Source: Blastomonas sp. (GTDB lineage Bacteria > Pseudomonadota > Alphaproteobacteria > Sphingomonadales > Sphingomonadaceae). From it: a stretch of 64,000 nt of DNA. Position numbers and translations under genes: made by a program. This document shows positions 42,345-54,289 of the stretch, in pieces. Numbering within the stretch: position 1 is the stretch's first letter; every line of letters starts with the position of its first letter. The stretch lies in assembly GCF_030373265.1 (NCBI RefSeq), contig NZ_JAUCZC010000003.1, positions 124,001-188,000 on the forward strand, written 5' to 3'. A model generated the notes under the pieces. It was not told where the DNA came from and made no database searches. It saw only the letters and a list, made by a program, of their open reading frames with translations.

Positions 42345-42977
42345 ATGACGACATCAGACGCCACGGCCAATTATGCGGGCGTGTTCGGCAACCGCATCGG
42401 CTTCGGCCGACGCCCCGCCTTGCTGCTGATCGATTTCGTCGAGGCCTATTTCGATCGGACGTGCGATCTGTTCGCCGATGTCGAGGACGCGCTGGCTAGC
42501 GCCATCCGGGTGCGTGATGCAGCGCGTGCGGCGGGCATCCCGGTCATCTACACCAATGTCGTCTATCACCCCAGCCTGGTCGATGGCGGGCGCTTCATGC
42601 AGAAGACGCCGCTGCTCAAGCACTTCGTTGCAGGCTCGCCAATGGGTGCATGGCCCGCAGGGCTCGAGCCGAACGCCGATGAACTGGTGATCTCCAAGCA
42701 GTATCCCAGCGCCTTTTTCGGGACCTCGCTCGCCGCGACGCTGACCGCTGCCGGCGTCGACAGCGTCATCCTGACCGGGCTTTCGACCAGCGGCTGCGTG
42801 CGCGCGACGTGTGTCGACACGAGCAGCCACGGTTTCATCCCGATCGTCGTCGCCGATGCCTGCGGCGACCGCCACGAAGCCCCGCACACCGCCAATCTGT
42901 TCGACATGAACGCCAAATATGCCGATGTCGTGAGCGAAGCCGAAGTGCTGGCGCATCTGGCGGGTTTGGGGGGCTAA
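42345..42977 (+). CDS. Isochorismatase / N-carbamoylsarcosine amidase-family hydrolase
   Basis: PALLLIDFVEAYF, KQYPSAFFGTSLAATL, LTGLSTSGCVRATCVDTSSHGF, VVADACGDR. Confidence 0.9.
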   Translation: MTTSDATANYAGVFGNRIGFGRRPALLLIDFVEAYFDRTCDLFADVEDALASAIRVRDAARAAGIPVIYTNVVYHPSLVDGGRFMQKTPLLKHFVAGSPMGAWPAGLEPNADELVISKQYPSAFFGTSLAATLTAAGVDSVILTGLSTSGCVRATCVDTSSHGFIPIVVADACGDRHEAPHTANLFDMNAKYADVVSEAEVLAHLAGLGG

Positions 42978-43074: not shown

Positions 43075-44286
43075 TTAAACCGCGCCCGCCGCCTTCAGCT
43101 CCGCGATCGCCGCTTCGTCCAGCCCGAGCAGTTCGCCATACACTTGCGCATTGTGCTCGCCGATAGACTGCGGGGCGAGACTGCGGATGCTGCTGGGCGT
43201 ATCGGAGAGCTTGGGGAAGCTGTTCTGCATCGCGAACTTGCCCCAGCGCGGGCTGTCGACCTCGACCAGCGCCTCGCGCGCCTTGAAATGCTCGTCGTCC
43301 AGCATGTCCGCCGCGCCATAGATGCGCCCCGCCGGAACGCTGTGTTCGATCATCAGCGCCTCGACCTCGGCCACGGTCAGCGTTTTGGTCCAGGCCTCGA
43401 TCAGGTCGTCGAGTTCCTTCTGCCGCTGCCCGCGCGCCAGATGCGTCGCATAGCGCGGGTCGCTGGCGAGTTCGGGCTGCCCCATCGCCTTGCATAGCCG
43501 CGCAAACACCGCGTCCTGATTGGCGCCGATCAGATATTCGCCGTCGTTGCACTGATAGACGTTGCTGGGCGCGACGCCTTCAAGGATCGACCCGGTACGC
43601 TGGCGGACATGGCCGCCGACCATATATTCGGGCACCAGGCTTTCCATCACCTGCAGCACCGCCTCATAGAGAGCGCTATCGACCACCTGCCCCCGGCCGG
43701 TCCGCTCGCGCGCATGCAGCGCGGCGAGCGCGCCCATGCAGCCATATGTCGCAGCCAGCGAATCGCCGATCGAGACCCCCATGCGGCTGGGCGGGCGGTC
43801 GGGATCGCCGACGATCGCGCGCCATCCGCCCATCGCCTCGCCGATTCCACCGAAGCCCGCGCGCGACGAATAAGGCCCGGTCTGGCCATAGCCCGAGACG
43901 CGCACGATGATGAGCCGCGGATTGATCGCATGCAGCGCATCGGGCCCCAGCCCCCATTTCTCGATCGTGCCGGGCTTGAAGTTCTCGATCAGGATATCGG
44001 CATGTTCGACCAGCTTGCGGACGATCTCCTGCCCTGCGGGAATTCGAAGGTTGGCGCTGACCGACTTCTTGTTGCGGGCGACGACCTCCCACCACAGTTT
44101 CTGCTCGCCATGGCCCCAGGCCCGCATCGGATCGCCGCCACCAACACCGTCCACCGCGGGCGGTTCGACCTTGATCACCTCCGCGCCCATGTCGCCGAGC
44201 AACTGGCCGCAGAACGGACCTGCGATCAGCTGGCCGAGTTCGACGACGCGAATGCCGGCCAATGCCCCCTGGTTTTCCTGGCTCAT
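43075..44286 (-). CDS. CaiB/BaiF family CoA-transferase
   Basis: GIRVVELGQLIAGPFCGQLLGDMGAEVIKVEPP, SANLRIPAGQEIVRKL, VSGYGQTGPYSSRAGFG. Confidence 0.93.
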   Translation of the reverse strand: MSQENQGALAGIRVVELGQLIAGPFCGQLLGDMGAEVIKVEPPAVDGVGGGDPMRAWGHGEQKLWWEVVARNKKSVSANLRIPAGQEIVRKLVEHADILIENFKPGTIEKWGLGPDALHAINPRLIIVRVSGYGQTGPYSSRAGFGGIGEAMGGWRAIVGDPDRPPSRMGVSIGDSLAATYGCMGALAALHARERTGRGQVVDSALYEAVLQVMESLVPEYMVGGHVRQRTGSILEGVAPSNVYQCNDGEYLIGANQDAVFARLCKAMGQPELASDPRYATHLARGQRQKELDDLIEAWTKTLTVAEVEALMIEHSVPAGRIYGAADMLDDEHFKAREALVEVDSPRWGKFAMQNSFPKLSDTPSSIRSLAPQSIGEHNAQVYGELLGLDEAAIAELKAAGAV

Positions 44287-44296
44287 GGCGTGGTCC

Positions 44297-46174
44297 TTAT
44301 TCTGCGGCAATCGCGTGGTGGTTCCAGCGCGGCTGGATCGGTGCGGGCAGCCCGGTTTCCGCGAGGCAGTTGGCGCGCAGCTGCTCGATGCTCGGGCCAT
44401 AATCGAACAGCGGCAGATCGGCGCGCTCGGCGCGCATCGTGGTGCGCAACGCTTCGGTAGCGGCGGTATCGAGCACGCCATCGGCATCGGCGATCACGCC
44501 ATAGGCCTTGGCCCCTTCGGACGTCACCAGACCCTGGCGGATTTCCTTGGCGACCAGCTCGGGCGCGCGTTCGAGCGGGTCACCCCAGCCGCCGCCGCCC
44601 CAAGTGATGAAATGCAGGATATCGCCCGCCTCGACCCGGACATCTTCCACCTTGTTGCCGACGATGGTTTGCGTGCCATCGGCCTTTTCCAGGATCTTGC
44701 GCGCGCGTGCGCCGGGCTTGCCGCCGTTGACGCCCCAGGGCGGCACGAACCAGCGGTCGTCGTGGATCGCGATCACGCCGGGCTCGAGGAACCGGTAGGT
44801 CATCAGGATGCCGTTGCCGCCGCGGTGCAGCCCCGCGCCGCCGCTGTCGGGCACGGTCTCGTAGCGCTCGATGACCAGCGGGAAATAGCGCTCAAGAAAC
44901 TCGTTGGGCACGTTGGTGAAGCCCGGCCACAAGGAATGGCCATCGGGGCCATCGCCCATCGGCCGCCCCGGAATGCCGCCAAAGCCGATCTGGAACAGCT
45001 GGAACCACTCGCCCTTTTTGTCGGTGCCCGCATAGAACAGATGCGGCGACGACGAAAAGCCGGCGGCGTTCAAGAATTCGGGCGTCTTCTGGCCGAGCAG
45101 CCCACCCAAAATGTCGAAGATGCGGCCCAGCGCATGGGTGCGGCCCGACAGCGCTGCGGGATAGCGCGGCTTGAGCAGCGATCCTTCGGGAATGCGCACC
45201 TCGATCAGGTCGTAGAAGCCGTCGTTGAACAGGATCTGTGGATCGAAGACCATGATCATGTAGATGCCGAAGAACATCTTGAACATGTTCTCGTTGAGCA
45301 GGAAGTTGATCGAGGCCTGGCTTTGCGGGTCGGTGCCGTCGAAATCGAGGATGACCTTATCGCCGTCGCGCCACATCGTGCATTTGAGCTTGTACGGCCC
45401 ATAGCCCATGCCGTCGTCGCAGATATAATCCTCGAAGCTGACCGGCTCTTCGCTGATCGCCTGGGACAGCAGGATCTTCATCGCGCGGTGGTTGCGCGCG
45501 AGCAGCTCCTGCGTCGCCGAGACATAGGTGTCGACGCCGAAACGCTCGCTCATCTCGATCACCCGGCGCGCGGCGACGCGGCACGAGGCGATCAACGCGT
45601 TCAGGTCCGCCGCGCACCACGCAGGCGTGCGGCTCTGGTGCAGCACCAGTTTGACCAGATCCTCGTTGTACACGCCCTTCTTCCAGATCTTGACCGGGGG
45701 AATGCGCACACCTTCCTGGAAGATGCTGGTCGCATCGATCGGCATCGACCCTGGCACCTTGCCGCCGATGTCGCTCTGGTGGCCGAACATCGCGGTATAA
45801 GCGAGCAACCGGCCGTCCTTGAACACCGGCAGCAACACCAGCCAGTCGTTGCTATGGCTGATCGCGCCGCCGACCGAATACGGGTCCGACAGGAAGATCA
45901 TGTCGCCATCCTCGAGCGTACCGTCAAAGCCTTCGAGGAAGCCGCCGATGAAGCTGCCGAACTGGCCAACGATCATCCGGCCGAGATGATCGGCGATCAG
46001 CGGAAAGGCATCGCCCTGCTCGCGGATGCCGGGCGACATCGCGGTTCGAACGAGCGTTGCGTCCATTTCGATGCGGGCGTTGCGCAGCGCGTTTTCGATG
46101 ATGTCGAGGCTGACCGGATCGATGGTCTTCTTCTCGAACGGGGTGTCGTTGGTCTGGATGATCGTTGCGGGCAT
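44297..46174 (-). CDS. Hydantoinase B/oxoprolinase (HyuB) family protein
   Basis: DPVSLDIIENALRNARIEMDATLVRTAMSPGIREQGDAFPLI, GSGGAGLHRGGNG-like segment DSGGAGLHRGGNGILM, GGGWGDPLER. Confidence 0.93.
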   Translation of the reverse strand: MPATIIQTNDTPFEKKTIDPVSLDIIENALRNARIEMDATLVRTAMSPGIREQGDAFPLIADHLGRMIVGQFGSFIGGFLEGFDGTLEDGDMIFLSDPYSVGGAISHSNDWLVLLPVFKDGRLLAYTAMFGHQSDIGGKVPGSMPIDATSIFQEGVRIPPVKIWKKGVYNEDLVKLVLHQSRTPAWCAADLNALIASCRVAARRVIEMSERFGVDTYVSATQELLARNHRAMKILLSQAISEEPVSFEDYICDDGMGYGPYKLKCTMWRDGDKVILDFDGTDPQSQASINFLLNENMFKMFFGIYMIMVFDPQILFNDGFYDLIEVRIPEGSLLKPRYPAALSGRTHALGRIFDILGGLLGQKTPEFLNAAGFSSSPHLFYAGTDKKGEWFQLFQIGFGGIPGRPMGDGPDGHSLWPGFTNVPNEFLERYFPLVIERYETVPDSGGAGLHRGGNGILMTYRFLEPGVIAIHDDRWFVPPWGVNGGKPGARARKILEKADGTQTIVGNKVEDVRVEAGDILHFITWGGGGWGDPLERAPELVAKEIRQGLVTSEGAKAYGVIADADGVLDTAATEALRTTMRAERADLPLFDYGPSIEQLRANCLAETGLPAPIQPRWNHHAIAAE

Positions 46175-46177
46175 GGG

Positions 46178-48235
46178 TCAGTTCCCCTTCTTGAGGGTGA
46201 TCAAAATGTTGCCGACGCTGTCGACGGTGCCGGTGCAATCGGCTTCGATCAGCGTGGTCGAGTCCATCTCGATGACGATGGCAGGGCCGGGGATGACGTC
46301 TCCGGCGAGCAGCTTGGAACGGTCGTAGATGACCGCGGGCATCATCGCCCCGTCCATCCACAGCTCATGAGCGCGCAGCTTGGCCGCCGACGGGTCGCCA
46401 TTGCCCTGCGCCAGCGTGGCGGCGGGCAGATCGAGCGGCTGGCCCATCGCCACCGCGCGCAGGTTCACGATCTCGTGCTCCGAATCCATGTTGAAGGTGA
46501 ACAATCGGTGGTGTTCCTCGTCGAACCGGCCGGTCAGCCACTCGATGCCATGGGTGTGCAGGTCATCGCGGGTGACCGCCATCGGCACCTCGAACGCCTG
46601 GCCCGCATAGCGCACATCGACCTCGAAGGTGATGGTGACATCCTCCCTCGCAACGCCCTCGGAGACCAATTCGTCGCCGATCTGCGCCGCCATTTCGTCG
46701 AGGATGCCGCCGAGCTCGTCGAGCGTGGTCGCGCTCGCGAGCCGCGAGAAGCTGCGCGCGGTTTCGGTGCGCATGCGCGTGGTCGCATCGCCCAGCGCGC
46801 ACAGCACGCCGGGACTGACCGGCGAGACCGCAGGCCAGCTGCCCATCAGCCGGGCAACCGCATTGACGTGCAGCGGCCCCGCGCCGCCAAAGCCCATCAG
46901 CGCGAAATCGCGCGGGTCATAGCCCTGCTGCACCGAGATCATCCGCAGCGCACCGAACATGTTCTCGTTGACGATATCGATGATGCCGCGCGCGGCGGCG
47001 TAAAGGTCGATCTTGAGCGCGTCGGCGATGGTCTGCACCGCCTTCTTGGCGCCCTCGCGGTCGAGCTTGAAGGTGCCGCCGAGCAGAGCTTCAGGCAGAT
47101 AGCCCAGCACGACATTGGCGTCGGTCACCGTCGGCAGCTCGCCACCCTTGCCGTACGCGACCGGCCCCGGCACTGCGCCCGCCGATTGCGGTCCGACCCT
47201 AAGGGCTCCGGTCAGTTCCGGCACATAGGCGATCGATCCACCGCCCGCGCCCACGGTCTTGACGTCGAGCGCGGAGGCGCGGACCGACAGATGCCCGACC
47301 TCGGTGGTGCGCACCCGGCGCGCCTCGAGGTTCTCGATCAGCGCGACGTCGGTCGAGGTACCGCCGACATCGAGCGTCAGGATGTTCTTAATGCCTGCGT
47401 TCTTGCCGACCCAGATCGCGCCGGTCACGCCGCCCGCCGGACCCGACATCAGCAGCGAGACGGGATGCTCTTCGGATTTTTCCGAGCTCATCAGCCCGCC
47501 ATCGGAGCGCAGCAAAGCCAATTTGCCCGCCATCCCCGCATCGCGAAGCCGGCTGCGCAGGTTGCGGACATAGCGGCCGACGACGGGGCGCACCGCGGCA
47601 TTGGCGACCGTGGTCAGCGTGCGTTCGTATTCCTGCATCTCGGGCAGCACGCTATGGCTGAGCGAAATCGGCACATCGGGCATGACCTCGGCGGCGAGTT
47701 CGGCGACGCGGCGTTCGTGCGCGCCGTTCAGATAGGCGTTCATCAGGCTGACGGTCAGCGCCTCGACGCCTTGCGTCTTCAATGTTTCCAGAGCGGCGCG
47801 GATATCGGCATCGTCGATCGCGCGCATCTCCTCGCCCTGCGCCGACATGCGGCCTGCGACCTCGACGGTGTCCTCCAGCGCGGCGAGCGGGGTGGGCTTG
47901 GGCCAGACGATCCAGCCGGCAAGCCCGCCGGGCACGAAACTCCGCGCAATCTGCATCACCTGGCGATAGCCTTCGGTGACGATCAGCCCGACGCGCGCGC
48001 CCTTGCCCTCGAGCACCGCATTGGTCGCAACCGTCGTTCCGTGGAGGAATATCTCGACATCGGCAGGGGTGATGCCCGCGCTCGCGCAGATTGCCTGCAC
48101 CCCCACCAGAATGCCCTCGGAGCTGTCATGCGGGGTCGATGGGGTCTTGTGCCGCCAGAAGGCGCCCGATTGTTCGTCGAACAGCAGCAGATCGGTAAAT
48201 GTGCCGCCGACATCGACACCCAGCCTGTAACTCAT
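46178..48235 (-). CDS. Hydantoinase A/oxoprolinase (HyuA) family protein
   Basis: MSYRLGVDVGGTFTDLLLFDE, HGTTVATNAVLEGKGARVGLI, LTLDVGGTSTDVALI, MGFGGAGPLH. Confidence 0.93.
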   Translation of the reverse strand: MSYRLGVDVGGTFTDLLLFDEQSGAFWRHKTPSTPHDSSEGILVGVQAICASAGITPADVEIFLHGTTVATNAVLEGKGARVGLIVTEGYRQVMQIARSFVPGGLAGWIVWPKPTPLAALEDTVEVAGRMSAQGEEMRAIDDADIRAALETLKTQGVEALTVSLMNAYLNGAHERRVAELAAEVMPDVPISLSHSVLPEMQEYERTLTTVANAAVRPVVGRYVRNLRSRLRDAGMAGKLALLRSDGGLMSSEKSEEHPVSLLMSGPAGGVTGAIWVGKNAGIKNILTLDVGGTSTDVALIENLEARRVRTTEVGHLSVRASALDVKTVGAGGGSIAYVPELTGALRVGPQSAGAVPGPVAYGKGGELPTVTDANVVLGYLPEALLGGTFKLDREGAKKAVQTIADALKIDLYAAARGIIDIVNENMFGALRMISVQQGYDPRDFALMGFGGAGPLHVNAVARLMGSWPAVSPVSPGVLCALGDATTRMRTETARSFSRLASATTLDELGGILDEMAAQIGDELVSEGVAREDVTITFEVDVRYAGQAFEVPMAVTRDDLHTHGIEWLTGRFDEEHHRLFTFNMDSEHEIVNLRAVAMGQPLDLPAATLAQGNGDPSAAKLRAHELWMDGAMMPAVIYDRSKLLAGDVIPGPAIVIEMDSTTLIEADCTGTVDSVGNILITLKKGN

Positions 48236-48294
48236 TCCTTCACCCCTTGGCTTGCCGACGCCGAACGTCGGCACGTTTGACTTATGGTCCGTCC

Positions 48295-49200
48295 CTATGC
48301 CGCAGCGCGCGCGACGAGGGACGGAAGCTCGCGGCCGAGAATCCCGGCCATCCAGCGATTGGCAGCAATCACCCCATCCAGGTCCATGCCGTGGTCGATG
48401 CCTGATCGCTGTGCGAGATAGATCAGCTCTTCGGTAGCGATGTTACCTGTCGCCTTGGGCGCGAACGGGCAGCCGCCAAGGCCACCCAGGCTGGCGTCGA
48501 GCACGTGCACCCCCGCCTCGAGCGCAGCCCAGGCGTTGGCGATCCCGGTGCCACGCGTGTTGTGGAAATGCGCGCGCAGCCGAACATCGGCGGGCACGAA
48601 TTCGGCAAGGCGGCCATACAGATCGGTCACCTGCGCCGGCACGCCGACGCCGATCGTGTCCGCCAGCGCAATCTCGGCAGGGCCCGCCTCGAGCACCGCC
48701 TTGGCGATATCGACGATCCGCTGCGGCGGGACGTCACCCTCGAACGGACAGCCGAACGCCGCCGAGATCGTCACCTGTGCGACCAGCCCTTCGGCCTTGG
48801 CAAAGCGGATCATGTCAGCGGCTTCGGCGATCCCTTCGGCCACCGTCTGACCCTGGTTCTTCTGGCCGAAGGTGTCGGTGGCCACGATCACGCAGCCGAC
48901 CTCGTCGACACCGCGCCTGCCGCCTTCGCGCGTAGCCAAGGCCCGCAGCACACCACGCTTGTTGAGCGTCAGACCGATATACGACACGTCAGCGCGGTCG
49001 GGCAAACCTGAGATCACGGCTTCGGCATCCGCCATCTGCGGAACCCGCTGCGGGTGGACGAAGCTGGCAACCTCCAGCCGTCGCGCGCCAGCGTCGATCA
49101 TGCGACCGATCATCGCCAGCTTGTCGGCGGTGGAGACAATGTCGGGTTCGTTCTGCAGCCCGTCCCGCGGGCCGACTTCGACGATCTGGATCTTGGTCAT
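48295..49200 (-). CDS. Hydroxymethylglutaryl-CoA lyase family protein
   Basis: IQIVEVGPRDGLQNEP, ASFVHPQRVPQMAD, AFGCPFEG, LADTIGVG, HFHNTRGTGIANAWAALEAGVHVLDASLGGLGGCPFAPKATGNIATE. Confidence 0.92.
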   Translation of the reverse strand: MTKIQIVEVGPRDGLQNEPDIVSTADKLAMIGRMIDAGARRLEVASFVHPQRVPQMADAEAVISGLPDRADVSYIGLTLNKRGVLRALATREGGRRGVDEVGCVIVATDTFGQKNQGQTVAEGIAEAADMIRFAKAEGLVAQVTISAAFGCPFEGDVPPQRIVDIAKAVLEAGPAEIALADTIGVGVPAQVTDLYGRLAEFVPADVRLRAHFHNTRGTGIANAWAALEAGVHVLDASLGGLGGCPFAPKATGNIATEELIYLAQRSGIDHGMDLDGVIAANRWMAGILGRELPSLVARAAA

Positions 49201-49208
49201 GAGGTGGT

Positions 49209-49218
49209 TTGTATACAT
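49209..49218. promoter_or_regulatory. Putative GntR operator, site 1 (upstream of the HMG-CoA-lyase-like gene)
   Basis: TTTGTATACATTT around GTATAC at 49211-49216; matches site 2. Confidence 0.65.
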
Positions 49219-49254: not shown

Positions 49255-49953
49255 TCAATCATTGGCCTGATATTGATCCCTGGGGCGCTTGGTGGTGATG
49301 CTGAAGGCGTGGAAAGCCCTGCGGATGTGACTGGTCATCACCGCGCGCGCCCAATGCGAATCGCGCGCAGCGAAAGCCGCGATCAGCTCGCGGTGATCGC
49401 GCGCCGACTGGAGCAGTTCGCTCACCCGGTATTGCTGGGCGGTGCGACTGACCACCGGCTGCTCGATCAGCTTGGGCAGCATCGCGCTCAACCGGGGCGA
49501 TCGGGCCGCTTCGAGAATGATATCGTGAAAACTGCGATTGTGCGCGAGAAATGCCGCCACATCAGGGGGATTGGCAGTGACAGCGGCGTCGAGAAGATCC
49601 GAGATCCGACCCATCTCTTCCAGCTGCCGGACCGAGATATTGCGCGCCGCACGGCTGGCAGCGTGCCCTTCGATCATCCCGCGCAGCACGAACATCTCGT
49701 CGATGTCATCGGCCGACCAGTCGGCGACGAACAGCCGCTTGGAATCGCTGCGCACGATCAGCAGTTCGTTTTCCAGCCGGCGCACCGCCTCGCGCACCGG
49801 AGTCCGCGACACACCCGAGATTCGCGCCAGCTGCTCCTCGGTCAGCTGATCGCCCGGCTCGGCATGGCCCGACAGAACGAACTGGCGAATCTTGTCATAG
49901 GCGATATCCGAAGCGCGCTGTGACGCAGCTTTTTCCATAGTTTTCAATCCCAT
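49255..49953 (-). CDS. GntR-family (FadR-type) transcriptional regulator
   Basis: LVFSGHAEPGDQLTEEQLARISGVSRTPVREAVRRLENE-like wHTH; FCD-type all-alpha C-terminus. Confidence 0.93.
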   Translation of the reverse strand: MGLKTMEKAASQRASDIAYDKIRQFVLSGHAEPGDQLTEEQLARISGVSRTPVREAVRRLENELLIVRSDSKRLFVADWSADDIDEMFVLRGMIEGHAASRAARNISVRQLEEMGRISDLLDAAVTANPPDVAAFLAHNRSFHDIILEAARSPRLSAMLPKLIEQPVVSRTAQQYRVSELLQSARDHRELIAAFAARDSHWARAVMTSHIRRAFHAFSITTKRPRDQYQAND

Positions 49954-50048: not shown

Positions 50049-50058
50049 TTGTATACAA
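50049..50058. promoter_or_regulatory. Putative GntR operator, site 2 (intergenic between gntR and the divergent racemase-like gene)
   Basis: CATTTGTATACAATA around GTATAC at 50051-50056; near TTGACG...CGTCAA arms (50035-50040/50062-50067). Confidence 0.65.
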
Positions 50059-50118: not shown

Positions 50119-50871
50119 ATGTCGGATCAACGCCGCATCAAGGTCATCGTGCCCATCCCCATGGATGCCGCCGGTGTCGCCTCGCGGGCCGCGCAACTGC
50201 CTGTCGATTTTGTTCGCCCCGGCTTTGTGCCCGAATTTGTTGCCGTTCCTTGGGGTGCGGCGCTGGGCGACAGCTATCACGACATGCTGCTGATGGACTG
50301 GACCGTGTTCCAGAGCGGCATCACCGCCGAGGACGAGGGCTATGCAGGCGTTCTGATCGACACGGTCAGCGATTCGGGGCTGCGCGCGTTGCGATCGCGG
50401 CTGACGATCCCGGTGATTGGTCCGGGCGAGGCCGCGTTTGCCGCCGCGATGATGCTGGGGAAGAAGTTCACCGTGCTCACCATGTGGCCCGAGTGGTTCC
50501 CGCTCTACCAGAAGACGCTGACCGAATACGGCTTCTGGGACCGCGTCGCCTCGCTGCGCTCGATCAACACACGGCCCGATGTCACCGAACTGCTCGCGGG
50601 CAAGGAGGAGGTGATCTTCGACAAGCTCAAGGCCGAGGCGGAGCGCGCGATGGAGGAAGACGGCGCCGATGTGATCGTGCTGGGCTCCACCACGATGCAC
50701 CAGTCGGCAGCCTTCCTGGCAGCGAACCTGCCCATCCCGGTGATCAACCCGGGCCAGATCGCGTGGAAGTTCCTGGAAAGCCTGATCGAATGCGGGCTGA
50801 CGCACAGCAAGAAGGCGTTTCCGATGCCGGAAGTGCCCAAGGATGCAGACATAAGAAAGGGTTGGTTCTGA
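50119..50871 (+). CDS. Aspartate/glutamate (hydantoin) racemase-superfamily protein lacking both canonical catalytic Cys
   Basis: LIDTVSDSGLRALRSRLTIPVIGPGEAA and DVIVLGSTTM align with the racemase C-x-x-D-P-G-L and LGC(A/T)GM motifs; the only Cys is in LIECGL. Confidence 0.82.
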   Translation: MSDQRRIKVIVPIPMDAAGVASRAAQLPVDFVRPGFVPEFVAVPWGAALGDSYHDMLLMDWTVFQSGITAEDEGYAGVLIDTVSDSGLRALRSRLTIPVIGPGEAAFAAAMMLGKKFTVLTMWPEWFPLYQKTLTEYGFWDRVASLRSINTRPDVTELLAGKEEVIFDKLKAEAERAMEEDGADVIVLGSTTMHQSAAFLAANLPIPVINPGQIAWKFLESLIECGLTHSKKAFPMPEVPKDADIRKGWF

Positions 50872-51302
50872 TGGCAGACTGGTCACCCGGGTGCGCGGGG
50901 CAAGCCGCCCTGCCCTATCCGTTCTACATCGACATCGTCACCAAGCGGTACTTTGACGGCGTCGACAACAAGAATATGGATCAGGTGCTCAACTGCTTTG
51001 CGCCCGACGCCACGCTGACCGAGGTGACGTCGAACACCGTGCACGAGGGCCGTGAGGCGATCCGGGCGATGTTCGTCAAGCTGTTCGCCGATTTCGAGCA
51101 GATCTGGCACGGGAATTTCGTCCACGTCGCAGACCCAGAATCGAACACGGTCTGCTCGCAGTTTACCGTGCTGATCACGCCCAATGGCGGCGAGCAGCTG
51201 CGCTACGAGAACTGCAACCGTTTCTATCTGAAGGACCGCCTGTTTCAGCAGGTCTATGTCTACATGAGCGGCGACAACCTGCTCAAGGAAGGGGACGCCT
51301 GA
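50871..51302 (+). CDS. NTF2-like/SnoaL-like protein A
   Basis: YFDGVDNKNMDQVLNCFAPDATLTE...VYVYMSGDNLL; TGATG overlap with the upstream gene. Confidence 0.82.
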   Translation: MADWSPGCAGQAALPYPFYIDIVTKRYFDGVDNKNMDQVLNCFAPDATLTEVTSNTVHEGREAIRAMFVKLFADFEQIWHGNFVHVADPESNTVCSQFTVLITPNGGEQLRYENCNRFYLKDRLFQQVYVYMSGDNLLKEGDA

Positions 51303-51700
51303 TGCAGTACGCACCCACCCTCCGCCGCGACGAATTGATCCAGTTTGCGACGCAGACCTATTTCGCCAGCGTCGATCGGAAAGACATGGCGGCCACGCTT
51401 GCCTGCTTCCATGACGAAGCGCTGTTCACCGTCCAGACCAGCTTCACCACCCATTCCGGCAAGGCCGAGCTCGAGCGGATGTTCGCCGATTTCTTCGGCG
51501 CGTGGGCCAAGATCGTCCACCGCGATTTCACCTGCACCGTCGATGAGACCAACGGGCGGATAGCCGCGAGTTTTGTCGCCGAACTGACCGCCGCCGATGG
51601 CAGCGTGACGACACTCGACAACACCAATTTCTGGCGGCTGCGCGACGGCAGGTTCCAAGAAGTCCATGTCTATATGAGCGGAGCCAATGTGCTGGTCTGA
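51302..51700 (+). CDS. NTF2-like/SnoaL-like protein B
   Basis: YFASVDRKDMAATLACFHDEALFTV...VHVYMSGANVL; TGATG overlap with protein A. Confidence 0.82.
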   Translation: MQYAPTLRRDELIQFATQTYFASVDRKDMAATLACFHDEALFTVQTSFTTHSGKAELERMFADFFGAWAKIVHRDFTCTVDETNGRIAASFVAELTAADGSVTTLDNTNFWRLRDGRFQEVHVYMSGANVLV

Positions 51701-51772: not shown

Positions 51773-54289
51773 ATGCGCCTTTCCAGTCTGTTCGCCGCAG
51801 CATCGGCCACCGTTCTCGCCGGTGCGCTCGCCACGCCGGCGATCGCCCAGTCCACCGATCAGGCCGGTGCGACCGACGACACCACGATCATCGTTACCGC
51901 GCGCCGGCAGAATGAAAGCCTTGCCGATGTCCCGGCATCGATCACGGTGTTCACCGCCGATTCGATCCAGAAGACCGGGGTCGAGACTGCCGACCAGTTC
52001 GTCCAGCTCACCCCCGGTGTCACCATCGTCACCGGCACCGCCGAAGCAGGCGACACCCAGATCAACATCCGCGGCATCAACGGCGCACGCGATGCCGAAA
52101 GCTCGGTGGCGCTGGTCGTCGATGGCATCTTGAAGACCAACACCGCGCAGCTCAACCAGAACCAGGGCACGCTGCGCCAGATCGAAATCCTCAAGGGCCC
52201 GCAGGGCGCGCTGTATGGCCGCAACGCGGCGGCAGGTGCGATCGTCATCCAGACGCTGAAGCCCGGCGACACGCTGGAAGCCGGCATCGAATTGAGCGCC
52301 GCCGAGCAGCAGACCTATCGCGGCAATGCCTTTATCTCGATGCCCCTGGGCGAGAACGCAGGCTTCGTGCTGTCTGGCTCCTATCTCAAGACCGACGGCT
52401 TCTATCGCAACATCTTCCTCAACAACTCCAAGACGATCGACGATCAGGAAGTGTGGTCGGTCGACGGGCGCTTCGTCGCGCAACTGGGCGACCGCACCGA
52501 GATCGATGCCAAGGCGCGCTATTCGGACCTGACCGGTGCATCGATCGCGTTCAATGCCGCCTTCCATCTGCCCAATTTTGCAGGCGCCAACCCTGCGTTC
52601 TTCGAGGACGTCAATCGCCATCCGTTCAGCTTCTACAACAACATCCGCCCGACCAACGACCAGACGACATTCGATGCGTCGATCAAGCTCGAGCACGAGT
52701 TCGACTTCGCCAAGCTGACCCTGTGGGGCCTGTACAGCAACGTCGACCAGTCGCTGACCGCCGACGGCACCTCGGCGGACTTTGCCCGCTTCACCTTCCC
52801 CGGTGCGACCCCGGCATCGGTGGCCGCATCGAACGCGTGCTTTGCCAGCACCGCCGCGCTTACCGGCTTCCCGGTCAACCAGCCCGGCTTCATCGGCGCG
52901 ACTCCGGTGCCGTTCATCTTCGCGCCCGCGACCGGTTCCACCTTCGGTCCGTACAGCCCGACGACCTGCGACGGCACGCAGTACCAGATTCGCGAACAGG
53001 AAGACTTCAGCGGCGAGATCCGCCTGTCATCGAACGGCGATGGTCCGTTCAACTGGCAATTCGGCGCCTATTATCTCAACATCAGCCGCGATGTCGGGGT
53101 GAGCCTGGGCGCCGACCTGGGCCAGGGGATCATCCGCGAGCTCTATAATGCGCCGAACACCAGCAACCCGACCACCCAGCTGTATTTCGACCGGTTCAGC
53201 ACCGACGTCTATGCCGCCTTCGGCTCGGCGGACTATAACTGGAACGATGTCGTCAACATCGGTCTGGCGCTGCGCTACGACATCGAGGACCGCAGCGTGT
53301 CCAACCGCGTGCCTCTGGTCGCCGATCCGTTTACCGGCGGGCCGATCAATCCCGGCCAGGTCGGCGGCGCGATCCCCGACAAGTCGGAAAGCTACAAGCA
53401 GCTCCAGCCCAAGCTGACCTTCCGCTGGGCGATGGCGGACAACGTCAACCTCTATGCCAACTGGGGAATCGGCTTCAAGGCGGGCGGTTTCAACAACTCG
53501 GGCTCAGCGGCGATCGTCGATCAGTCGTTCAATCAGTTTATCGGTTCGCAGGTCGCGATCACCGACAATTATCGCAAGGAAAAGTCGAGCGCCTTCGAAG
53601 GCGGGATCAAGGGATCGATCCTCGACGGCAAGGTCACCTTCGATCTCGCCGGCTATTACACCGATGTCGATGACATGCAGTTCTTCGAGTTCTTCGTCGG
53701 CGGCTTCGGGCTGCTGCGCGTGGTGTCGAACATCGACGAGGTGCAGATCTATGGTGCCGAGCTCAACCTGAACGCGGAGGTCACCCCCGGCTGGACGATC
53801 TTCGGTGCACTCAACGTCACCGAAAGCGAGATCAAGGCCAACGCCTCGCGGCCGCAGACGGTGGGCAACAAGTCACCCTCGACCGCCGATTACACGATCA
53901 ATCTGGGCACCCAGATCGTAGCCCCCATCGCCAAGAGCTTCGATCTGGTGGCGCGTGCCGATTATCGCATCACCGGTCCGACCTGGTTCCACACGCTGCA
54001 GGAAGACAGCGTTCCGACCATCTTCAGCGGCCTGCTGCCGGGCTCGGCACTGGCACTCCCCGCCTTTGTCGGCGACGCCGATTATTCGGTCACCCGGCGC
54101 GAGGCGTTCGGCGTGCTCGATGTCCGCGCCGGGCTCGAGGGCGAAAACTGGCGGGTGACGATGTTCGCCGACAACGTGCTCAACCGGCGCTACCTCAACG
54201 AGGTGATCACCGCGGCGGAGTTCGGCGGATCGTTCATCTCGCCCGGCGGTCTGCGCCGTCTGGGTGTCGAGGTCGGCTACAAGTTCTGA
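51773..54289 (+). CDS. TonB-dependent receptor
   Basis: Signal peptide; TIIVTARRQNESLADVPASITVFTADSI (plug/TonB box), GPQGALYGRNAAAGAI, C-terminal LGVEVGYKF. Confidence 0.95.
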   Translation: MRLSSLFAAASATVLAGALATPAIAQSTDQAGATDDTTIIVTARRQNESLADVPASITVFTADSIQKTGVETADQFVQLTPGVTIVTGTAEAGDTQINIRGINGARDAESSVALVVDGILKTNTAQLNQNQGTLRQIEILKGPQGALYGRNAAAGAIVIQTLKPGDTLEAGIELSAAEQQTYRGNAFISMPLGENAGFVLSGSYLKTDGFYRNIFLNNSKTIDDQEVWSVDGRFVAQLGDRTEIDAKARYSDLTGASIAFNAAFHLPNFAGANPAFFEDVNRHPFSFYNNIRPTNDQTTFDASIKLEHEFDFAKLTLWGLYSNVDQSLTADGTSADFARFTFPGATPASVAASNACFASTAALTGFPVNQPGFIGATPVPFIFAPATGSTFGPYSPTTCDGTQYQIREQEDFSGEIRLSSNGDGPFNWQFGAYYLNISRDVGVSLGADLGQGIIRELYNAPNTSNPTTQLYFDRFSTDVYAAFGSADYNWNDVVNIGLALRYDIEDRSVSNRVPLVADPFTGGPINPGQVGGAIPDKSESYKQLQPKLTFRWAMADNVNLYANWGIGFKAGGFNNSGSAAIVDQSFNQFIGSQVAITDNYRKEKSSAFEGGIKGSILDGKVTFDLAGYYTDVDDMQFFEFFVGGFGLLRVVSNIDEVQIYGAELNLNAEVTPGWTIFGALNVTESEIKANASRPQTVGNKSPSTADYTINLGTQIVAPIAKSFDLVARADYRITGPTWFHTLQEDSVPTIFSGLLPGSALALPAFVGDADYSVTRREAFGVLDVRAGLEGENWRVTMFADNVLNRRYLNEVITAAEFGGSFISPGGLRRLGVEVGYKF

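Follow-up and report, generated by a model that had tools for sequence, protein, structure and literature searches.

The gene at 50119..50871 on the plus strand of the window (the whole 64,000-nucleotide stretch of Blastomonas sp. DNA analyzed here) encodes a protein that sequence profile and predicted fold place in the Asp/Glu/hydantoin-racemase superfamily, with threonine standing in for the first catalytic cysteine and serine for the second. This loss of cysteine has been fixed by selection and is not a product of decay. We put at about even the chance that the protein is a functional, thiol-free enzyme of the superfamily that takes part in the GntR-controlled catabolism of a nitrogen-ring compound in Sphingomonadales, acting as a decarboxylase or tautomerase rather than as a racemase.

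Membership of the superfamily was assessed with a profile search, in which the protein matched PF01177 (Asp_Glu_race) with E = 2.1e-28 (100 bits, against a gathering cut-off of 31). The nearest solved relatives were allantoin racemases: 3qvj/3qvk from Klebsiella pneumoniae (E 5e-18 and 5e-19) and 5lfd from Pseudomonas fluorescens. An AlphaFold2 model of the protein (pLDDT 94.1, pTM 0.91), in which the least certain stretch is a clade-specific loop near residues 151-160, has the fold of the solved PF01177 members. When this model was searched with Foldseek, 3qvk and 3qvj came out on top (TM 0.84), whereas arylmalonate decarboxylase (AMDase) and maleate isomerase scored less well (TM ~0.6).

The first-pass annotation of this DNA had proposed that T and S stand at the two catalytic positions and that the only cysteine lies elsewhere, and both readings held. 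T82, encoded by ACG at 50362-50364, stands in the first motif, LIDTVSDSGL, and S190, encoded by TCC at 50686-50688, in the second, VLGSTTM; the sole cysteine, C225, lies in LIECGL. In a HMMER alignment, T82 and S190 fall opposite the catalytic residues of the Klebsiella allantoin racemase, numbered Cys79 and Cys184 (PMC12661438), and in the predicted model they follow strands 77-80 and 185-188, respectively. The active site thus contains no cysteine.

Through a scan of genome contigs and a family-wide search, we collected ~108 orthologs (70-95% identity, nearly all from Sphingomonadales) and found T82 and S190 to be invariant in every one of them, within DTVSDSG and GSTTMHQ; no close homolog had both cysteines. 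This invariance rules out an alignment artefact or chance, and a sequencing or assembly oddity is likewise ruled out, since seven genomes of the genus and the ~108 orthologs concur. C225, by comparison, varies among the orthologs and so can be dismissed as a relocated catalyst, and because ~40 of the ortholog rows contain no cysteine at all, a cysteine-based mechanism is impossible. Values of dN/dS between the window gene and its near relatives were 0.05-0.08, which, together with the invariance of T82 and S190, refutes decay.

We next compared the protein with the characterized members of the superfamily, and it could be filed with none of the three considered (hydantoin racemase, AMDase, and maleate isomerase), as each comparison failed on defining features that were tested. 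The Klebsiella allantoin racemase 3qvj shares the fold over ~238 columns at 29% identity, and its motif positions align, but it lacks S84, T191, T192, W123, and the longer loop at ~150-163, which are specific to the clade described below. Furthermore, Asn12 of that enzyme (KpAllR) binds the hydantoin ring, and N or D occupies this position in 100% of the allantoin/hydantoin racemase family (PMC12661438), whereas the present protein has I13. AMDase belongs to the same superfamily and has already lost one cysteine position, its motifs carrying Gly74 and the catalytic Cys188, with a dioxyanion hole made up of T75, S76, Y126, and G189 (PMC4996985). The motif-aligned residues here are T82 in place of Gly74 and S190 in place of the required Cys188; in the dioxyanion hole, S76 corresponds to S84, T75 to V83, and G189 to T191, as anchored on the motifs rather than by superposition. 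Maleate isomerase (Iso, NicE type), also of the same superfamily, has two catalytic cysteines and forms a covalent succinyl-cysteine intermediate (according to the title of PDB entry 2xed), but the present protein offers no cysteine at either position.

The E. coli L-Asp/Glu racemase, with threonine at the first position, and AMDase are both single-cysteine enzymes, and partial loss of cysteine thus has precedent. The two Klebsiella structures also differ at these sites, 3qvj retaining its cysteines and 3qvk having serine at both. We take 3qvk to be a form deliberately mutated for trapping substrate, in which case the natural protein resembles, at these two positions, an artificially disabled racemase. 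In the open-access literature, we found no characterized cysteine-free member of the superfamily, and a protein that has lost both cysteines and fixed a Thr/Ser pair in their place seems to represent a new variant within it.

A profile search of 385 class-level and 399 phylum-level genomes, plus plasmid records, showed that the variant extends well beyond the orthologs. Further Cys-less relatives, mostly at 41-68% identity and reading T/S or S/S where the cysteines would be, were found in Rhizobiaceae, Tistrella, Variovorax, and Kordiimonadaceae, among others; the clade, with members in Proteobacteria, is described by the motif [ND][TS]xSDSG...GSTTM[HY]. Its proteins are annotated as aspartate/glutamate racemases, or even as HupH, despite the loss of the catalytic residues. 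In a maximum-likelihood tree, the Cys-less proteins lie on one side of a branch with support of 97/98, accompanied by four tandem partners in which even T/S is gone; the two-Cys proteins form a group apart (support of 99/97). Single-cysteine proteins of the T/C or S/C type, among them the second copy of this genome, branch beside the Cys-less ones. Each of the three groups remained single after removal of the motif columns and of long-branch rows. Where exactly the one-Cys group belongs is made uncertain by some long branches (L002 and L130). From this unrooted tree, the probable evolutionary order is two cysteines, then one (T/C), then none. The fixed residues and the supported clade, along with the many orthologs free of cysteine, bear out the earlier view that the protein is unlikely to be a two-base cysteine racemase.

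Some genomes carry more than one superfamily gene. In one alphaproteobacterial family (L124, L173, L176, L178, and L204), a single genome can hold as many as seven Cys-less paralogs, several of them in tandem and some near cysteine hydrolase pairs. Directly downstream of a Cys-less copy in Tistrella (L192, 9768-10457), Neorhizobium (L194, 9765-10421), and Variovorax (L193, 9787-10527) lie further superfamily genes whose products have D/Q, D/G, or A/S at the catalytic positions and look like non-catalytic or heteromeric partners. The second copy in the present genome (contig C26, L214, 8504-9295) has S at the first position and C at the second, and its neighbors are genes for a VOC protein, a PuuE-like deacetylase, an amidase, and a PrpD-like protein.

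Within the clade, S84, E163, S190, and T191 were invariant in all 67 Cys-less members. The two-Cys members differ at these positions mostly or entirely, with mainly G or D for S84, C for S190, and mainly A or G for T191. T192 (66/67), W123 (64/67), and H194 (63/67) are nearly invariant, and the residues of the motif regions rank among the most conserved of the clade. At the ring-binding position, F, I, V, or L was found in 67 of 67 clade members, compared with N in 31 of 34 two-Cys members.

The gene stands in a conserved neighborhood, the features of which are as follows.

42345..42977, plus strand: isochorismatase-fold cysteine hydrolase, N-carbamoylsarcosine amidohydrolase-like (PF00857)
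43075..44286, minus strand: CaiB/BaiF family III CoA-transferase (PF02515)
44297..46174, minus strand: HyuB, hydantoinase B / oxoprolinase B subunit (PF02538)
46178..48274, minus strand: HyuA, hydantoinase A / oxoprolinase A subunit (PF01968)
48295..49200, minus strand: HMG-CoA-lyase subfamily enzyme (NF004283, 302 bits, cut-off 246; PDB matches to HMG-CoA lyases)
49209..49218: second operator-like site, ATGTATACAA on the minus strand, just upstream of the HMG-CoA-lyase operon
49255..49953, minus strand: GntR family regulator, FCD subfamily, conserved in 75 loci
50049..50058: first operator-like site, the palindrome TTGTATACAA, located upstream of the racemase-like gene
50119..50871, plus strand: racemase-like gene, intact from ATG to TGA, 250 aa
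50871..51302, plus strand: SnoaL-like protein 1, adjoining the racemase-like gene in relatives too
51302..51700, plus strand: SnoaL-like protein 2, overlapping SnoaL1 by 1 nt, NTF2 fold predicted
51773..54289, plus strand: TonB-dependent receptor, start set at a signal-peptide-like Met, position conserved

The hydrolase comes first, on the plus strand, followed by CaiB, HyuB, HyuA, HMG-CoA lyase, and GntR on the minus strand and by the racemase-like gene, SnoaL1, SnoaL2, and TonB on the plus strand. The same ten-gene set recurs across Sphingomonadales with its order and orientation shuffled (for example, with CaiB flipped or the hydrolase moved), and it is also complete in a more distant genome (G637, L199). 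At three further loci (L198, L200, and L201), the racemase-like gene retains a SnoaL neighbor and has HyuA within ~10 kb, with CaiB and HMGL at L200 and HyuB and the hydrolase at L198 and L201. Proximity of HyuA to a Cys-less racemase gene was also observed in other families and in further genomes of the phylum. The rough combined chance of such HyuA distances in seven genomes was 4e-8, a value that is indicative only, as the genomes were partly picked after the loci had been viewed. We found no literature on the gene cluster in open-access papers.

Homology gives some indication of what these neighbors do. HyuA best matched the N-methylhydantoinase 7hk5 in the PDB (E 2.5e-133). The hydrolase matched the N-carbamoylsarcosine amidohydrolase 26st (E 6.8e-46) and, at ~1e-35, 3ot4/4l07; the isochorismatase-family entries that it resembles, 3ot4/3uao and 4l07/4l08, are presumably maleamate amidases, a likeness that recalls maleate isomerase pathways. 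For CaiB, the best NCBIfam match was succinate-glutarate CoA-transferase, under the cut-off of that model, and its PDB matches include succinate-hydroxymethylglutarate CoA-transferase. The predicted structure of SnoaL2 showed only a generic NTF2 fold (ketosteroid isomerase-, epoxide hydrolase-, or cyclase-like) and indicated no specific function.

The strongest link of the Cys-less protein to the HyuAB-CaiB-HMGL set is a common operator-like site. Allowing at most one mismatch, TTGTATACAA occurs twice in the 64 kb, compared with 0.14 times expected, and none of 100 shuffles reached two. Genome-wide, WTGTATACAA was found in three places, two of which are those listed above; the third lies inside an unrelated, glyoxalase-type ORF and looks like chance. 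We then surveyed gene starts at 80 ortholog loci for the TGTATACA site and found it at the starts of the racemase-like gene (71/80), HMGL (61/70), the divergent GntR gene (70/75), and CaiB (32/62), whereas it was rare or absent at those of HyuA (3/69), HyuB (0/61), SnoaL1 (0/72), and TonB (3/74). Because the sites are present at first genes and not at internal ones, they mark operon starts. The occurrence of the palindrome at the starts of both divergent operons and in only one other genomic place indicates that the two operons form one GntR regulon, and we propose GntR as the putative repressor of both. The general operator form of FCD-type GntR regulators resembles sites of the TTGTATACAA type, and from this form and from the linkage we infer that GntR binds them. 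At 49200-49218, in the minus-strand operon, the operator-like site overlaps the first ATG of the HMG-CoA lyase gene, and translation therefore probably starts at the second ATG (49200, MTKIQ), downstream of the site.

In the pathway that we propose, the nitrogen-ring compound, most likely of the cyclic imide, lactam, or hydantoin type, would be taken up by a TonB-dependent route, opened by HyuAB at the expense of ATP, and deamidated by the cysteine hydrolase. CaiB would then activate the dicarboxylic acid with CoA, and the HMG-CoA-lyase-like enzyme would carry out a C-C (retro-Claisen) cleavage, with the Cys-less protein and the two SnoaL proteins performing cofactor-free steps on a carboxylic intermediate. 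Motif alignment of the Cys-less protein suggests that its step is probably one of enolate chemistry, by a decarboxylase or tautomerase. The loss of both reactive cysteines and the apparent joint regulation with catabolic-looking genes make it probable that the reaction differs from that of any characterized family member. An enediolate would be stabilized in an AMDase-like oxyanion pocket, with S84 at the place of Ser76 and S190, T191, and T192 contributing clade-specific hydroxyls, and protonation would come from water or from another residue, for which H194 is one candidate, but not from cysteine. It is this combination, an oxyanion pocket without protonation by cysteine, that would point to a decarboxylase or tautomerase rather than to a racemase.

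Three known pathways were considered and set aside. Judged by homology only, both the ATP-dependent hydantoinase and the carbamoylsarcosine hydrolase of the N-methylhydantoin/creatinine pathway have counterparts here, since enzymes of that pathway are the top PDB matches for HyuA and for the cysteine hydrolase. That pathway, however, yields sarcosine without CoA steps and has no place for CaiB and HMG-CoA lyase, which belong to the conserved, operator-linked set, or for the two SnoaL proteins and the racemase-like protein. For the nicotinate-type maleamate/maleate pathway, raised by the amidase homology, no ring-cleaving partner was found, and maleate isomerase needs cysteine. As for the auxin (indole-acetate) lactam pathway, neither a hydantoinase nor a racemase is mentioned in the paper on the Variovorax iad operon.

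Related gene sets were observed on plasmids. The Acidiphilium multivorum JZ-6 plasmid, typed as conjugative, carries GntR-HMGL-CaiB-HyuA-HyuB-hydrolase with LeuCD-like (isopropylmalate-dehydratase-like) and flavoprotein genes (L218); the racemase-like gene was not found in the stretch of this plasmid examined. A Neorhizobium plasmid has HyuAB, hydrolase, PrpD, and isocitrate-lyase-family genes alongside a Cys-less gene. The gene content of these two plasmids points to substituted dicarboxylic acids as the intermediates. Plasmids of Sphingomonas sp. JE1 and Sphingobium sp. TomTYG65 (L215 and L216) encode a HyuA 86% identical to that of the window, next to flavoproteins and a succinate-semialdehyde dehydrogenase, and perhaps represent a related mobile version of the pathway. 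Copies of the S/S type in sphingomonad and related clusters (L182, L183, L185-L188, and L191) adjoin Rieske oxygenases, often with a formamidase, and at L188 beta-ketoadipate-type genes follow too. Since other clade members stand beside Rieske oxygenases or PrpD/isocitrate-lyase-type genes, the substrate class may exceed imides and hydantoins.

We weighed four other explanations of the Cys-less protein. It is possible, though unlikely, that the protein has remained a racemase, epimerase, or cis-trans isomerase in which other residues, such as H194 and one on the opposite face, have replaced the cysteine bases. The shared fold, with an allantoin racemase as the best structural match, and the hydantoin-like neighbors (HyuA resembling N-methylhydantoinase and the hydrolase resembling carbamoylsarcosine amidohydrolase) are in keeping with this, but both base positions carry hydroxyl residues, and the Asn that contacts the hydantoin ring is replaced by a hydrophobic residue (I/F/V/L) throughout the 67 clade members. 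Moreover, at one locus (L205, contig of G494), a Cys-less gene and a two-Cys gene flank a single HyuA-HyuB pair, which argues that the two proteins have distinct jobs. Equally doubtful is a hydrolase or lyase in which S190 would attack an amide, imide, or lactone intermediate as the nucleophile. S190 is predicted to lie in a strand-loop-helix turn with H194 four residues on, and amidohydrolases repeatedly adjoin clade genes; yet the pathway already has amide hydrolases, and H194 is not strictly invariant, being Y or S in 4 of the 67 members.

We regard it as less likely still that the protein has no catalytic activity and serves as a ligand-binding or allosteric partner, perhaps of the SnoaL proteins. 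The absence of the two catalytic residues would fit such a role, as would the 1-nt overlap of the racemase-like stop codon with the SnoaL1 start (TGATG), which suggests coupled translation. However, the strong conservation of the motif regions speaks against it, as do the nearly invariant GKE residues in the clade-specific loop and the diverged paralogs, up to seven per genome in one family, which look like substrate diversification. Because the gene belongs to a catabolic regulon and has clade-specific invariant active-site residues, an enzyme is more likely than a mere binder. Finally, a decayed or inactive duplicate, which the absence of both catalytic cysteines and the same kind of change in the Ser/Ser crystal form 3qvk might suggest, is extremely improbable, being already contradicted by the invariant motifs of the ~108 orthologs, the low dN/dS, and the conserved operon and operator.

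Taken together, these results delimit a clean subfamily that lends itself to testing, for which a probable course of evolution, a structural template, a regulon, and a few candidate chemistries can be named. Finding its reaction would add a route free of thiols to a superfamily that is of interest to biotechnology for racemization and decarboxylation, and would reveal the identity of a catabolic pathway found repeatedly in Sphingomonadales.
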